The notes under the pieces are model-generated. The model saw only the letters and a list, made by a program, of their open reading frames with translations, had not been told where the DNA came from and made no database searches. From Deltaproteobacteria bacterium (lineage in GTDB: Bacteria > Myxococcota_A > UBA9160 > SZUA-336), in assembly GCA_029261925.1 (NCBI GenBank), contig JAJDAJ010000111.1:1-64000 (forward strand): a DNA stretch of 64,000 nucleotides, in the 5' to 3' direction. A program made the translations under genes and the position numbers. This document shows, piece by piece, positions 54,543 through 60,609 of this stretch. The stretch's first letter is position 1, and every line of letters starts with the position of its first letter.

Positions 54543-55145
54543 GTGCGTCTGGTCGCCTGGATCCTGCTCTGCGCGCTGGTGCGACCGGCCCTGGCCGACG
54601 AGCTCCGGGTGGTCTGCCTGGGCGACTCGCTGACCGAGGGCTACGGGCTGGCGGCCGACGAGGCGTATCCGGCGCTGGTCGAGCAGCGCCTGCACGCCGA
54701 GGGGCGCGGCGACGTGCGCGTGATCAACGCGGGGATCAGCGGATCGACCACCGCCAGCGGGCCGGCGCGCCTGCGCTGGCAGCTGCGGGGCGAGCCCGAC
54801 GTGCTGCTGCTCGCCCTGGGTGGAAACGACGGTCTGCGAGGGCTGGACCTCGAGACCACCCGCGCCAATCTCGCGCGGGTGATCGCCATGGCGCGCGAGG
54901 CCGGGGTGAGCGTGTTGCTGGCCGGCATGAAGCTGCCTCCGAACTACGGCGAGACCTACACGCGCGACTTCGAGCGCATGTACTTCGAGCTGGCTGCGGA
55001 CCACGAAGTGCCCATGATCCCGTTCCTGCTGGAGGGCGTGGCCGGTCGGCCGGAGCTCAACCTGCCCGACGGCATCCACCCCAATGCGCGCGGGCACGCG
55101 ATCGTGGCCGAGCTGGTCTACCGGCACCTGAAGGCGCTGCTTTGA
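54543..55145 (+). CDS. tesA: SGNH-family esterase/lysophospholipase, TesA-like
   Basis: A 200-residue exported hydrolase with signal peptide (MRLVAWILLCALVRPALA). Block I GDSLTEGYG holds the nucleophile Ser, GGND (block III) the oxyanion Asn, and DGIHPNARGH (block V) the Asp-His pair. E. coli TesA acts as thioesterase, protease I and lysophospholipase L1 in the periplasm. GTG start with GAGG upstream. As in E. coli, it lies beside a YbbA/YbbP-type ABC system, here in the same direction and with a 4-nt overlap (TTGA). Confidence 0.92.
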   Translation: MRLVAWILLCALVRPALADELRVVCLGDSLTEGYGLAADEAYPALVEQRLHAEGRGDVRVINAGISGSTTASGPARLRWQLRGEPDVLLLALGGNDGLRGLDLETTRANLARVIAMAREAGVSVLLAGMKLPPNYGETYTRDFERMYFELAADHEVPMIPFLLEGVAGRPELNLPDGIHPNARGHAIVAELVYRHLKALL

Positions 55146-55807
55146 TCCTGCGCGTGCGCGACGTGCACAAGTCCTTCCCGCAGCCGGGCGGCACGCTGGA
55201 GGTTCTGCGCGGCGTGGAGCTCGAGGTCCGCGAGGGCGAGACGGTCGCGATCCTGGGAACGTCGGGGTCGGGCAAGTCGACGCTGCTGTCGCTGCTGGCC
55301 GGTCTCGACGCGCCGACCCGCGGCAGCGTCGAGGTCGCGGGCCAGGATCTCGCGGCTCTCGACGAGGCCGGGCTCGCGGCCTTCCGGGCGAGCCAGCTCG
55401 GCATCGTCTTCCAGCAGTACCACCTCCTGGGCGGACTGACCGCGCTCGAGAACACCAGCCTCCCGCTCGAGCTGCACGACGTCGCTGCGCCCGACGCCGA
55501 GACGCGGGCGCGCGACGCGCTGGAGCGCGTCGGGCTCGGCGAGCGCCTGGGGCACTTCCCGCACGAGCTCAGCGGGGGTGAGCAGCAGCGCGTGGCGATC
55601 GCGCGGGCGCTGGTGGTCGAGCCTGCGCTGATCCTGGCCGACGAGCCCAGCGGCAGCCTCGACGATCGCACCGGTGAGATCGTGATGGGGCTGCTCTTCG
55701 ACCTGGTGGCGAAGCAGGGCACCACGCTGGTGCTGGTCACGCACAGCGATCCGCTGGCCGCGCGCTGCGATCGCGCCCTGCGCCTGCGCGACGGCGTCCT
55801 GGCCTAG
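55142..55807 (+). CDS. ABC transporter ATP-binding protein, LolD/YbbA type
   Basis: A 221-residue ATPase: Walker A GTSGSGKST, Q-loop FQQYHLL, signature LSGGEQQRVAIARAL, Walker B LILADEPSG, H-loop THSD. Size and sequence fit the LolD/MacB/YbbA subgroup that powers mechanotransmission with FtsX-like permeases. The TTG start overlaps the tesA stop. With the permease 14 nt downstream it probably extracts or exports a lipid or lipoprotein-like substrate. Confidence 0.93.
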   Translation: MILRVRDVHKSFPQPGGTLEVLRGVELEVREGETVAILGTSGSGKSTLLSLLAGLDAPTRGSVEVAGQDLAALDEAGLAAFRASQLGIVFQQYHLLGGLTALENTSLPLELHDVAAPDAETRARDALERVGLGERLGHFPHELSGGEQQRVAIARALVVEPALILADEPSGSLDDRTGEIVMGLLFDLVAKQGTTLVLVTHSDPLAARCDRALRLRDGVLA

Positions 55808-55821
55808 GGCAGGGCTCCGGC

Positions 55822-58392
55822 ATGGCCCTGCGCGCGCCCCTGACCCTGCGCCTGGCGTGGATCGAGCTGCGCAACGACCGCCGCTTCGCAGTCCTGTTCG
55901 CACTGAACCTGGCGCTCGGGCTCTGCGGCTTCGTCGCGCTCGATGCCTTCAAGACCTCGCTCGACGCCACGCTGGACCGCCGCTCGCGCTCGATGCTCGG
56001 CGCCGATCTGCAGCTCGTCGCGCGCCGGCCGATCCGCTCGGCGGAGCGCGAGCGCGTCGACGCCGCGGCCGGGCCCGGGGCCGTGGCGCTCGACGAGGCC
56101 GAGATGCCCTCGATGGTGGCGGCCGGACCGCGCTCGCGGCTGACCCAGCTGCGCGTGGTCGGGCCCGCGTTTCCCCTGCGCGGCGAGATCGGTCTGCGCG
56201 TCGCCGGCGCGCGCGGGAGCGGTGCGGGCCAGCGCCTGGACGGCACGCCGGTCGTCTGGCTGGCGCCCGAGCTGCTCGCGCAGCTCGACGTGGACGTCGG
56301 CGACGAGGTGCGCATCGGCCAGGCGAGCTTCGCGGTCGGAGACGTCGTCGAGCGCGACAACGGCATCGCCGCGGGGGGCTTCGCGCTGGCGCCGCGCGCC
56401 TACATCGGCGCCTCGCAGCTGGCCGCCACGGGGCTGGTGCAGTACGGCAGCCGCGTGGTCTACCGGCGCATGTACCGGCTGCCCGACCGCGTGGATCCAC
56501 AGGTGCTCGTCGAGTCGCTGCGCCCGGATCCGCTGCTCGAGAAGGTCCGCGTGCAGAGCCACCGCGATGCTGGCGAGGACATCGCGCGCGTCGTCGGCTA
56601 CCTGAGCGACTTCCTCTCTCTGGTGTCGCTGGTCGCGCTGCTGCTGGCGGGACTGGGCGCGGCGTTCCTGTTCCGCAGCTTCCTGGCCCGGCGCCTGCGC
56701 GACGTGGCCGTGCTGGTCTGCGTGGGCGCGTCCTTCGGACGCGCGCAGACCGTGTACGTCTGGCAGCTGGTGCTGCTCGGTCTGGGCGCGTCGCTGGTCA
56801 CCGTGGTGCTCAGCGCGCTCCTCGTGCCGCTGGTGCCGTGGCTGCTCGGTCCCGAGCTGGTGCCGCTCGCGGTGGCGCCGACGATCGGACCGCGCAGCGT
56901 GGTGATCGCGGTCGGGGCGGCGATCGGCGGCAGCCTGCTGCTGGCCCTGCCCTCGGTGCTGCGCCTGCGCAGCCTCAAGCCCGCGGTGCTCTTCAGCGAG
57001 GCGGCGCACCCGGAGCTCGCGCCGCGCTGGTGGGCCGGCGTGCTCTACCTGCCGACGGTGCTGCTGTACTGGGCGCTCGCGTCGTGGCAGGCGTACTCAC
57101 CGCTGCGCGGGGCGCTGTTCGTCGGCTTCCTGGCGGGCGCCTGCGTGCTGCTCGGCGCGGCGCTGTGGGCGGGGCTGCGCGTCGCCGAGCGCGTGGCCGC
57201 CTCGCGGGCGCTGCCCCTGCGTCTGGCGCTGCGACACATGGTGCGCCAGCGCACGCGCACGCTGGCCGCGTTCCTGGCGATCGGGCTCAGCGCCCTGCTG
57301 CTCGACGTGGTCCCGCAGCTGCGCGCGGTGCTGCGCGCCGAGGTGGACCGGCCCGAGGGCGAGGCGATCCCCAGCCTGTTCCTGATCGACATCCAGGACG
57401 AGCAGGTCGAGCCGCTGCGCGCGCTGGTCCAGGACCTCGGCAGCGAGCTGGTGCAGCTCTCGCCGCTGACCCGCGCCCGGCTGACGCACGTCGACGGCGT
57501 GGAGGTGCCGCGGCGGCCGCCGGAGCCGGATCCGGGCGCCTCGCCGGAGGAGCGCGAGGAGGCGCGGCTGCGGCATCGCAGCTACAACCTGAGCTCGCGC
57601 GAGCGCCTCTCCGACTCCGAGCGCCTCGTGGAGGGGCGCGAGTTCAGCGGGCGCTACGACTGGGACGCCGGGGGCACGGCCGAGATGTCGGTCGAGTCGG
57701 AGTTCGCGGAGCGTCTCGAGCTGGAGCTCGGAGACACGCTGCGCTTCGACGTGCAGGGCGTGCCCGTCAGCGGCCGCGTCGTGCAGCTGCGCGAGATCCG
57801 CTGGCAGAGCTTCGCGCCGAACTTCTTCGTGCAGTTCCAGCCCGGGGTGCTCGACGACGCCCCCAAGATCTGGATCGCCGCGCTCCCCGAGATGTCGCGA
57901 GAGCGCAAGCTCGATCACCAGCGCGAGATCGTGGGCGCGTTCCCGAACGTCTCGGTGATCGACATCAGCGCGGTCGTCGCGCGCGTGCTCGGGATCGTCG
58001 AGCAGGTGCAGCTGGCGACGAACTTCATGGCCGCGCTGGCCCTGCTCGCCGGCCTGGCCCTGATCTACGCGATCGCCAGCCACCAGGCGGAGGAGCGGCG
58101 CTGGGAGACCAACCTGCTCAAGGTGCTCGGCGCGGACTTCGCGCGGATCGCGGCGATCGTGCGCTGGGAGTTCGGCCTGATCTCGCTGGGCGCGGCGGTT
58201 CTCGGGGCGCTGGCCAGCCTGCTGCTGAGCTGGATGCTCGCGCGCTGGGTCATGGACGCACCCTGGCGACCGGGCTGGGCGGCGCCGCTGATCAGCGCCG
58301 TCGCCATCCCGGCGCTCTGCGTCCTGACCGCCGGGCTGGCGACGCGCCGCACCCTGCGCGAGCGGCCCCTGGCGCTGCTGCAGCGCAGCTAG
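55822..58392 (+). CDS. ABC transporter permease, YbbP/FtsX type
   Basis: An 856-residue inner-membrane permease. It has an N-terminal helix (FAVLFALNLALGLCGFVA), a large periplasmic domain (about 45-250), three to four helices around 270-385, further helices near 420-500, a second periplasmic domain (about 505-725) and a C-terminal FtsX-like bundle (AALALLAGLALIYAIASHQ). This two-FtsX-repeat layout is that of YbbP/DUF214 permeases. Partner of the preceding ATPase. Confidence 0.9.
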   Translation: MALRAPLTLRLAWIELRNDRRFAVLFALNLALGLCGFVALDAFKTSLDATLDRRSRSMLGADLQLVARRPIRSAERERVDAAAGPGAVALDEAEMPSMVAAGPRSRLTQLRVVGPAFPLRGEIGLRVAGARGSGAGQRLDGTPVVWLAPELLAQLDVDVGDEVRIGQASFAVGDVVERDNGIAAGGFALAPRAYIGASQLAATGLVQYGSRVVYRRMYRLPDRVDPQVLVESLRPDPLLEKVRVQSHRDAGEDIARVVGYLSDFLSLVSLVALLLAGLGAAFLFRSFLARRLRDVAVLVCVGASFGRAQTVYVWQLVLLGLGASLVTVVLSALLVPLVPWLLGPELVPLAVAPTIGPRSVVIAVGAAIGGSLLLALPSVLRLRSLKPAVLFSEAAHPELAPRWWAGVLYLPTVLLYWALASWQAYSPLRGALFVGFLAGACVLLGAALWAGLRVAERVAASRALPLRLALRHMVRQRTRTLAAFLAIGLSALLLDVVPQLRAVLRAEVDRPEGEAIPSLFLIDIQDEQVEPLRALVQDLGSELVQLSPLTRARLTHVDGVEVPRRPPEPDPGASPEEREEARLRHRSYNLSSRERLSDSERLVEGREFSGRYDWDAGGTAEMSVESEFAERLELELGDTLRFDVQGVPVSGRVVQLREIRWQSFAPNFFVQFQPGVLDDAPKIWIAALPEMSRERKLDHQREIVGAFPNVSVIDISAVVARVLGIVEQVQLATNFMAALALLAGLALIYAIASHQAEERRWETNLLKVLGADFARIAAIVRWEFGLISLGAAVLGALASLLLSWMLARWVMDAPWRPGWAAPLISAVAIPALCVLTAGLATRRTLRERPLALLQRS

Positions 58393-58444: not shown

Positions 58445-59824
58445 ATGGCGGTCCCGGTGCACCTGATCTCCGGCTTTCTCGGCGCGGGCAAGACGACCGC
58501 GATCCGCGCGCAGCTCGAGGCGCGGCGACACGAGCGTGTGGCCATCATCGTCAACGACTTTGGCGAGGCCGGCCTCGACGAGGCGGCGCTGGGCGAGGAC
58601 GAGCCGTTCCGGATCACCAGCATCCCCGGCGCGTGCGTCTGCTGCACGGCGCCCGACGGCTTCGTCGCCGCGCTCGGCGCCGTGCTGGCCGACGGTCCCG
58701 ACCGCCTGATCATCGAGCCGACCGGTCTGGCGCGCCCGCAGGACCTGATCGACACCATCCGGCGCAGCCCGCAGCGCGACGCCGTCGAGCTGGCGCCCGT
58801 CGTGGTCCTGCTCGATCCGCGCCAGCTCGCACCCGACGGGCTCGGTGCGCTGCCCGTGCTGCGCGAGCAGCTGGAGGCGGCCGATGTGCTGGTCGCCAAT
58901 CACACCGACGCCTGCGGCCCCGACGACCTGGCCCGCTTCGACGCGCTCGTCGACGAGCTCTGGCCGGCACCGCTCGCGGTGGTGCGCACGACGCACGGGC
59001 GCCTGGAGCCGGCGGTCCTCGACTGGCCCGAGGGCGAGGGTGCGCGCGCGCCGCGCGCCCTCCGGGTCGATGGAGATCATGACCACGATCACGCCCACGG
59101 TGCGGACTCGACCCGTGGCTTCGCCGCGCGGTCCTGGCGCTGGTCGCCGGAGGTGGTGTTCTCCCGCGAGCGCCTGCTCGACGCGCTGGCGCGCCTGGCG
59201 ACCGGCGCTGCCGGCGCCCCGCTGGCGCGCCTCAAGGGCATCTTCCGCACCCAGGAGGGCGTGTACCTGCTGGAGGTCGCGGGCGGTGACGTTCACGATC
59301 GCCTGACCTCGCATCGCCGCGACAGCCGCGTCGACGTGATCGTCGCCTCCGAGGAGCCCGGGCCCCTGGAGGCCGCGGGTCGCTGGCTCGAGGACGCCGT
59401 GATGCGCGACGACGAGCTCCAGCTCGACACCGAGCGCATCGAGCTGGTCCTGCCCGACGGTCGCGTCAGCCTGGTGGACCGCGATCTCCTGACGGGGCTG
59501 CCCGACCAGGTCGCCGACGTCTCGCCGCTGTTCCCGAAGCGCGAGGGCAGTGCGGCGCGCGTGGACCGGCTCTGGTCCGCGCTCGACCTCCCCGCCAGGG
59601 GACATGCGGTCGTCGTCGCGGGCGACGGCTTCGCGACCGAGCCGGTGTCGATCGAGATCCTGCGCCAGGGCTACGTGCTGCACAGCCAGGGCGACCGGCC
59701 GCTGCCGGAGGGGCAGGGCGGTCCGTTCCGGCTGCTGATTCCCGAGGAGGCAGATGCGCCGCTGGGCGCCTGCGCCAACGTCAAGGGACTGGCGAAGATC
59801 GTCGTCCGCGAGGAGAGCGCCTGA
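58445..59824 (+). CDS. G3E (CobW/YjiA-like) GTPase with C-terminal molybdopterin-oxidoreductase-like domain
   Basis: A 459-residue fusion. The G3E part has Walker A GFLGAGKTT, the metal site GACVCCTAP (C64-V-C66-C67), EPTGLARP and a His-rich loop (DGDHDHDHAH), as in metal-chaperone COG0523 GTPases. The NKxD guanine motif is changed to NHTD. From about residue 320 comes an extra domain: VSLVDRDLLTGLP, VVVAGDGFATEPV, GGPFRLLIPEEA and ANVKGLAKIVV, which resembles the sulfite-oxidase-type molybdopterin-binding fold without its Cys ligand. A normal G3E protein is about 320 residues. It is coupled (TGATG) to an SDR gene. Metal and client unknown. Confidence 0.83.
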   Translation: MAVPVHLISGFLGAGKTTAIRAQLEARRHERVAIIVNDFGEAGLDEAALGEDEPFRITSIPGACVCCTAPDGFVAALGAVLADGPDRLIIEPTGLARPQDLIDTIRRSPQRDAVELAPVVVLLDPRQLAPDGLGALPVLREQLEAADVLVANHTDACGPDDLARFDALVDELWPAPLAVVRTTHGRLEPAVLDWPEGEGARAPRALRVDGDHDHDHAHGADSTRGFAARSWRWSPEVVFSRERLLDALARLATGAAGAPLARLKGIFRTQEGVYLLEVAGGDVHDRLTSHRRDSRVDVIVASEEPGPLEAAGRWLEDAVMRDDELQLDTERIELVLPDGRVSLVDRDLLTGLPDQVADVSPLFPKREGSAARVDRLWSALDLPARGHAVVVAGDGFATEPVSIEILRQGYVLHSQGDRPLPEGQGGPFRLLIPEEADAPLGACANVKGLAKIVVREESA

Positions 59825-60609
59825 TGCACGACCCGTTCGGATTCGGAGACAGGGGAGGCCTGGTGATCGGTGCCGGCCAGGGCATGGGCCGCGAGGCCGC
59901 GCTGCTGCTGGCGCGCCTGGGCGCACGCCTGGCTCTCGTCGACGTCGAGGCGGAGCGCGGCGAGGCCGTCGCGAAGGAGGTGCGCGCGCTCGGCACCAGC
60001 GCCGCGCCGCTGAGCTTCGACGTGACCGACGCGGCGCAGGTCCGTGCCGGCGTCGAGGCGGCGATCAAGGAGCTGGGGCGGATCGACGTGCTGATCAACA
60101 TCGTCGGCATGGCGGGCTGGGGTCCGCTGCTCGACATCGAGCCCGAGGACTGGGACCGCGACGTGCTCCTGAACCTGAAGCAGCACTTCCTGGTGTGCCG
60201 CGAGGTCGGGCGCCACATGCGCGACGCCGGCGGCGGCGCCATCTCCGTCGTGGCCTCGGTCAGCGGCCTCTTCGCCGCCCCCAATCACGGGCCCTACGGT
60301 GCCGCGAAGTCGGGCGTGATGGCCCTGGTGCGCACCATGTCGCAGGAGTGGGAGCCGCACGGCATCCGCGTCAACGCCGTCGCGCCGGGCTCGGTGCGCA
60401 CGCCGCGCATCATGGCCATGCGCGAGAGCGGCGAGATCGCCGAGAGTGACCCGCGCGCCGCCGGACGCGAGTCCGAGCCGCTCGACATCGCCAACGCCCT
60501 GGTCTTCCTCGTCTCCGACATGGCCCGCCGCATCAACGGCCAGGTCATCGTCGTGGACGGCGGCACGATCGCGCGCTTCCCGTTCGGCGACATGGAGCGG
60601 ACCGGTTGA
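59824..60609 (+). CDS. Short-chain dehydrogenase/reductase
   Basis: A 261-residue classical SDR. The cofactor loop is unusual: GGLVIGAGQGMGREAA, so TGxxxGxG reads IGAGQGMG. An acidic Asp in LVDVEAERG suggests NAD preference. NIVGMAGWG replaces the NAG motif, the catalytic Ser is in VASVSGLF and Tyr-Lys in YGAAKSGV. It starts 1 nt inside the GTPase gene and overlaps the next lipoprotein gene (TTGA). Substrate unknown. Confidence 0.9.
   Translation: MHDPFGFGDRGGLVIGAGQGMGREAALLLARLGARLALVDVEAERGEAVAKEVRALGTSAAPLSFDVTDAAQVRAGVEAAIKELGRIDVLINIVGMAGWGPLLDIEPEDWDRDVLLNLKQHFLVCREVGRHMRDAGGGAISVVASVSGLFAAPNHGPYGAAKSGVMALVRTMSQEWEPHGIRVNAVAPGSVRTPRIMAMRESGEIAESDPRAAGRESEPLDIANALVFLVSDMARRINGQVIVVDGGTIARFPFGDMERTG

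Follow-up and report, generated by a model that had tools for sequence, protein, structure and literature searches.

COG0523 GTPases are widespread, and for most of them neither a client nor a trigger is known (PMC9164220). For the sulfite oxidase (SUOX) fold there is a precedent, PruR, a Cys-less version that takes pterins as ligands and controls a partner (PMC13259868). No description of a fusion between a CobW/COG0523 protein and a sulfite oxidase, molybdopterin or pterin domain was found in the literature searched, judged by title and abstract. Here we describe such a gene, which lies on the plus strand of a window of 64,000 nucleotides (the whole stretch of DNA that was analysed). A first-pass annotation had read it as a COG0523 GTPase fused to a sulfite-oxidase-like fold without its Cys, and this is borne out by Pfam, profile comparison, AlphaFold2 and Foldseek. 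The same fusion was sought in other genomes and is present as 46 distinct in-frame copies in about 49 Myxococcota genomes from several families. The features of the gene are as follows.

58445..59824, plus strand: whole fusion gene, an open frame of 459 codons plus stop; the 46 distinct copies are full-length homologues.
58445..59029, plus strand: COG0523/G3E GTPase domain, residues 1-195 (Pfam cobW at 4-171, E 9.4e-35); the nearest solved structure, by sequence and by fold, is E. coli YjiA.
58472..58495, plus strand: P-loop GFLGAGKT, residues 10-17, kept in nearly all 46 fusions, with K16 and T17 in 46/46.
58634..58645, plus strand: CVCC metal-binding motif, residues 64-67, with all three Cys in 46/46.
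58898..58909, plus strand: G4 motif NHTD, residues 152-155, which is NRxD in most fusions.
59072..59098, plus strand: His-rich loop GDHDHDHAH, residues 210-218, seen in the sequence; the fusions carry 0-12 His here.
59123..59395, plus strand: CobW C-terminal domain, residues 227-317 (Pfam CobW_C at 229-286, E 4e-5, over the Pfam cut-off), with strands and helices in the model.
59408..59821, plus strand: third domain with a SUOX fold lacking the Mo ligand, residues 322-459, from Pfam, profile, AlphaFold2 and Foldseek.
59525..59527, plus strand: P361, in the column of the SUOX Mo-ligand Cys by profile alignment; never Cys in the 46 fusions.
59624..59632, plus strand: D394-G395-F396, aligned with the SUOX D-G-Y motif; D394 and G395 in 46/46.
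59717..59731, plus strand: GGPFR, residues 425-429, corresponding to SUOX HGGPxR; G425, G426, P427 and R429 in 46/46.
59771..59785, plus strand: CANVK, residues 443-447; C443, V446 and K447 in 46/46, K447 aligning with a SUOX-invariant Lys.

The fusion reading frame is real and its domain structure is well supported. AlphaFold2 models the full-length protein with a pLDDT of 84.9 and a pTM of 0.82. The CVCC motif, the His-rich loop, the NHTD in place of NKxD and the tail of about 140 residues, all listed in the first-pass annotation, were confirmed from the sequence. That tail is not the standard CobW C-terminal domain, which is a separate unit at residues 227-317; it follows this unit as a third, well-modelled domain of SUOX type.

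By the features tested, a G3E P-loop GTPase domain and a CxCC motif, the fusion protein classifies as a member of COG0523. The scores against the NCBIfam equivalog models for CobW, ZigA and the PRK11537 GTPase are far under their cut-offs, so that the protein is none of these named proteins. A second, ordinary COG0523 protein is encoded in the same genome. All 46 fusions retain intact GTPase and CxCC motifs, and metal-coupled GTP hydrolysis is therefore expected from the family (PMC9164220). The His-rich loop is present in most fusions and absent from some, and it is disordered in the AlphaFold2 model (pLDDT below 50 at residues 210-220). The NHTD change is present as claimed and carries little weight. 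The G4 position is Arg in 43 of the 46 fusions (NRxD), with His only in this genus and in one other fusion, and the motif is loose among the COG0523 proteins sampled, of which the others have NKxD, SKxD, TKxD, NQxD or SRxD. NHTD thus appears to be the genus-level form of a fusion-wide NRxD, a mild family feature and not evidence for a new nucleotide.

The Oxidored_molyb family (Pfam: PF00174) matches the tail of this protein weakly (Pfam E 0.2). It is matched by 26 of 30 homologues, with a best E of 1e-7, and in the genome searches many fusion homologues exceed the Pfam curated cut-off. A PDB search with a profile of the third domain reached putative sulfite oxidases (5.5e-7); the profile was necessary here, as phmmer with the single tail sequence returned noise only. 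Modelled alone in AlphaFold2, the third domain reaches a pLDDT of 89.5. Its Foldseek matches are, in order, the YlaL-SdhA integrative model 9a64, PruR proteins (E of about 1e-5 to 1e-4) and chicken sulfite oxidase (about 2e-4), and the C185S and C185A mutants of chicken sulfite oxidase are among the matches. With 9a64_A as the top match, YlaL may itself share a SUOX-type fold. In profile comparison the third domain matches catalytic SUOX proteins (98.2%, E 2.9e-14) and, more weakly, PruR (81%, 1.2e-5). Fold and alignment together assign it to the SUOX superfamily, in which it lacks the Cys of catalytic SUOX proteins and departs from PruR in two tested features.

The Cys that ligates molybdenum is missing in all 46 distinct fusions. 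Residues 355-368 hold no Cys at all and the P361 column is variable. Other parts of the pocket are kept: the SUOX-invariant Asp, Gly, Pro, Arg and Lys correspond to the fusion-invariant D394, G425, P427, R429 and K447, whose equivalents we take to contact the pterin and its phosphate in sulfite oxidase. Of the nine columns of the shared region that are invariant in SUOX proteins, five are also invariant in the fusions, where about one is expected by chance (hand arithmetic from 15 invariant columns of 136, and shared ancestry alone also favours overlap). Lost besides the Cys are the His that precedes GGP, the Trp that follows the Lys, and the cofactor segment at the N-terminus; with all of these gone, pterin binding may be weak or absent altogether. 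In addition, the fusions have invariants of their own in G368 and C443 (both 46/46), and R366 is present in 42/46. C443 aligns with a Trp or Phe shortly before the SUOX Lys. It is unlikely to be a substitute Mo ligand, because its region presumably forms the phosphate end of the pocket, by analogy with MsrP.

Our preferred reading, held tentatively and rated somewhat short of an even bet, is that the fusion protein may be a cytoplasmic metallochaperone in which the added domain serves as a switch or docking module by binding a phosphorylated pterin, perhaps molybdopterin. In the scheme that we infer, a divalent metal, most likely Zn, would be held at the CVCC motif and the His loop, and its release would be coupled to GTP hydrolysis. 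The ligand of the third domain would be a pterin with a phosphate, most probably molybdopterin or a related compound, and the domain would carry out no redox chemistry; its pterin occupancy would switch or direct the transfer of the metal to a client. A phosphorylated pterin such as molybdopterin is favoured since the SUOX-type anchors are kept in the fusions but lost in PruR. The first-pass annotation had seen a hint of a new factor that inserts a metal or cofactor, and the protein may be one; pterin sensing or docking fits equally.

A rather unlikely alternative is that the third domain is ligand-free, a degenerate SUOX fold retained as an interface, for a dimer or for another protein, through which the metallochaperone recognises its client. 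The loss of the catalytic Cys and of several other pocket positions is consistent with this, as is the variability of COG0523 C-terminal regions, which are thought to choose the targets (PMC9164220). However, the fusion invariants sit on SUOX-invariant columns more often than the chance figure given above, and a bare scaffold would not need the Arg and Lys at the cofactor site.

The neighbouring genes in other genomes, to which the first-pass annotation had also pointed, were compared by clustering the neighbours of about 42 loci. They are lineage-specific, and no conserved gene partner emerged among them. The most recurrent are a D-Ala-D-Ala carboxypeptidase-like gene (13 loci), glutamyl-tRNA synthetase (6) and an FKBP-type isomerase (5), followed by DAHP synthase (4) and a BioD-like gene (4); these names were assigned from sequence by eye, with glutamyl-tRNA synthetase alone confirmed by Pfam. 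No SUOX or molybdenum cofactor (Moco) gene lies beside any fusion gene in the collected loci. That no conserved neighbour for a pterin or Moco link was found counts against the pterin reading. In one family, the fusion is found in six loci a few genes away from apparent F420 biosynthesis genes cofD, cofC and cofE, and in most of these it directly precedes the glutamyl-tRNA synthetase gene.

In the genome studied here, the upstream genes (54543-58392, plus strand) look by eye like a GDSL/TesA-type esterase, an ABC ATPase and a large FtsX-type permease. About 50 non-coding bases separate them from the fusion, which may share their transcription unit. Downstream, a generic short-chain dehydrogenase (59824-60609, plus strand) begins on the last base of the fusion stop codon, and translation of the two may be coupled. 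We considered this dehydrogenase as a pteridine reductase and rejected the idea, as it matches generic short-chain dehydrogenases and the synteny is limited to the genus, where the same order is seen next to the same-genus copy. Rfam gave no match within the window.

MoeA is found in 47 of the 49 carriers, which we counted for the pterin reading; one carrier genome at 93% completeness showed none, a point against it. This genome, on two contigs, and most carriers of the same class have three MoeA-type genes, a tandem pair among them. The triple MoeA was rejected as a telling sign, as most carriers outside the class have one.

The co-occurrence data bear on a further reading, an unlikely one, in which the fusion protein helps SUOX-type molybdoenzymes such as MsrP to mature: its Cys-less domain would hold molybdopterin or Moco, or mimic the enzyme, and the GTPase would drive the handover or supply a metal. 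Of similarly low probability is a Moco-dedicated G3E GTPase, which would keep molybdopterin in its Cys-less SUOX domain and use GTP to load or quality-control SUOX-type enzymes. By profile, catalytic SUOX proteins are the nearest match of the third domain, and this genome encodes an MsrP-like protein. An additional SUOX-family gene is present in 48 of the 49 carriers. Among 148 relatives, PF00174 is found in 20/20 carriers against 92/128 non-carriers, with a hypergeometric probability of about 0.002, calculated by hand and ignoring kinship, so that the support is weak. Against a role in maturation stand the absence of SUOX and Moco genes next to the fusion genes and the presence of SUOX genes in most of the genomes that lack the fusion.

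It is more improbable still that the protein is a PruR-like sensor of small reduced pterins, tuning Zn delivery to pterin or folate enzymes, for example the Zn enzyme FolE. PruR structures rank above the sulfite oxidases in Foldseek and nearly all relatives have FolE, but FolE is present alike in carriers and non-carriers and was rejected as a discriminator. Moreover, the SUOX Arg and Lys are kept in the fusions and lost in PruR, and PruR proteins are exported and have c-di-GMP or kinase genes as partners, neither of which applies to the fusion protein.

The distribution of the fusion was determined by searching for the third domain in 379 genomes of the phylum, of which 52 had matches. In nearly all of these the third domain is in one open frame with the GTPase, and the few weakest matches are ordinary SUOX proteins or chance. 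Several carriers are named as Myxococcota or Myxococcales metagenome-assembled genomes (scan of GTDB species contigs). No fusion was found in the 398 Pseudomonadota genomes sampled, which have ordinary SUOX-family and PruR-like proteins only. The GTPase halves of all fusions group in a single clade of their tree, next to sister proteins from the same phylum that are not fused and have about 320-355 amino acids. All fusions also form one clade in the tree of the third domain, placed with catalytic SUOX and not with PruR, a tentative placement given the short domain and midpoint rooting. With one clade for either half, the fusion probably arose in a single event, which is the simplest account.

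A fusion copy of the same genus (L104:7499-8885, minus strand) is frameshifted in a GC-rich stretch just past the CobW C-terminal domain, perhaps by an assembly error. Although this copy is split and most of the sequences are from draft metagenome-assembled genomes, 46 distinct in-frame fusions in several families, with each half a single clade, make an assembly or gene-call artefact joining two genes hardly credible.

For a family of GTPases in which clients and triggers are mostly not known, a conserved natural fusion with a domain of pterin type gives a pointer to a ligand and to a switch that can be tested. Such a switch, if true, would tie the delivery of metal to the status of pterin or of the molybdenum cofactor. 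The fusion is also a second, apparently separate case besides PruR in which the sulfite oxidase fold was kept after loss of the metal ligand.

The periplasmic pterin-binding PruR proteins share with the third domain the Cys-less SUOX fold and a similar length, and they are its best experimentally solved fold matches. They are without the SUOX Arg and mostly have Trp at the position of the Lys, whereas the fusions have Lys in 46/46. PruR is secreted and encoded with DcpA or sensor kinases; the third domain lies behind a cytoplasmic GTPase, and no such neighbour was seen in the collected loci. With the catalytic SUOX proteins of PF00174 (sulfite oxidase, MsrP/YedY) the fusions have the fold in common and retain the Asp, the Gly-Pro-x-Arg and the Lys. 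In contrast to these, they are without the Mo-ligand Cys, the N-terminal cofactor segment, the His and the Trp, they have gained the invariant C443, and the domain is fused to a GTPase with no evident signal peptide. Compared with the COG0523/CobW G3E GTPases (YjiA, CobW, ZigA/ZagA and Nha3), the fusions share the P-loop, CxCC, the Walker B ExxG and the CobW C-terminal domain, as well as the His loop in most cases, and differ in a G4 motif of NRxD or NHxD and in the added third domain.
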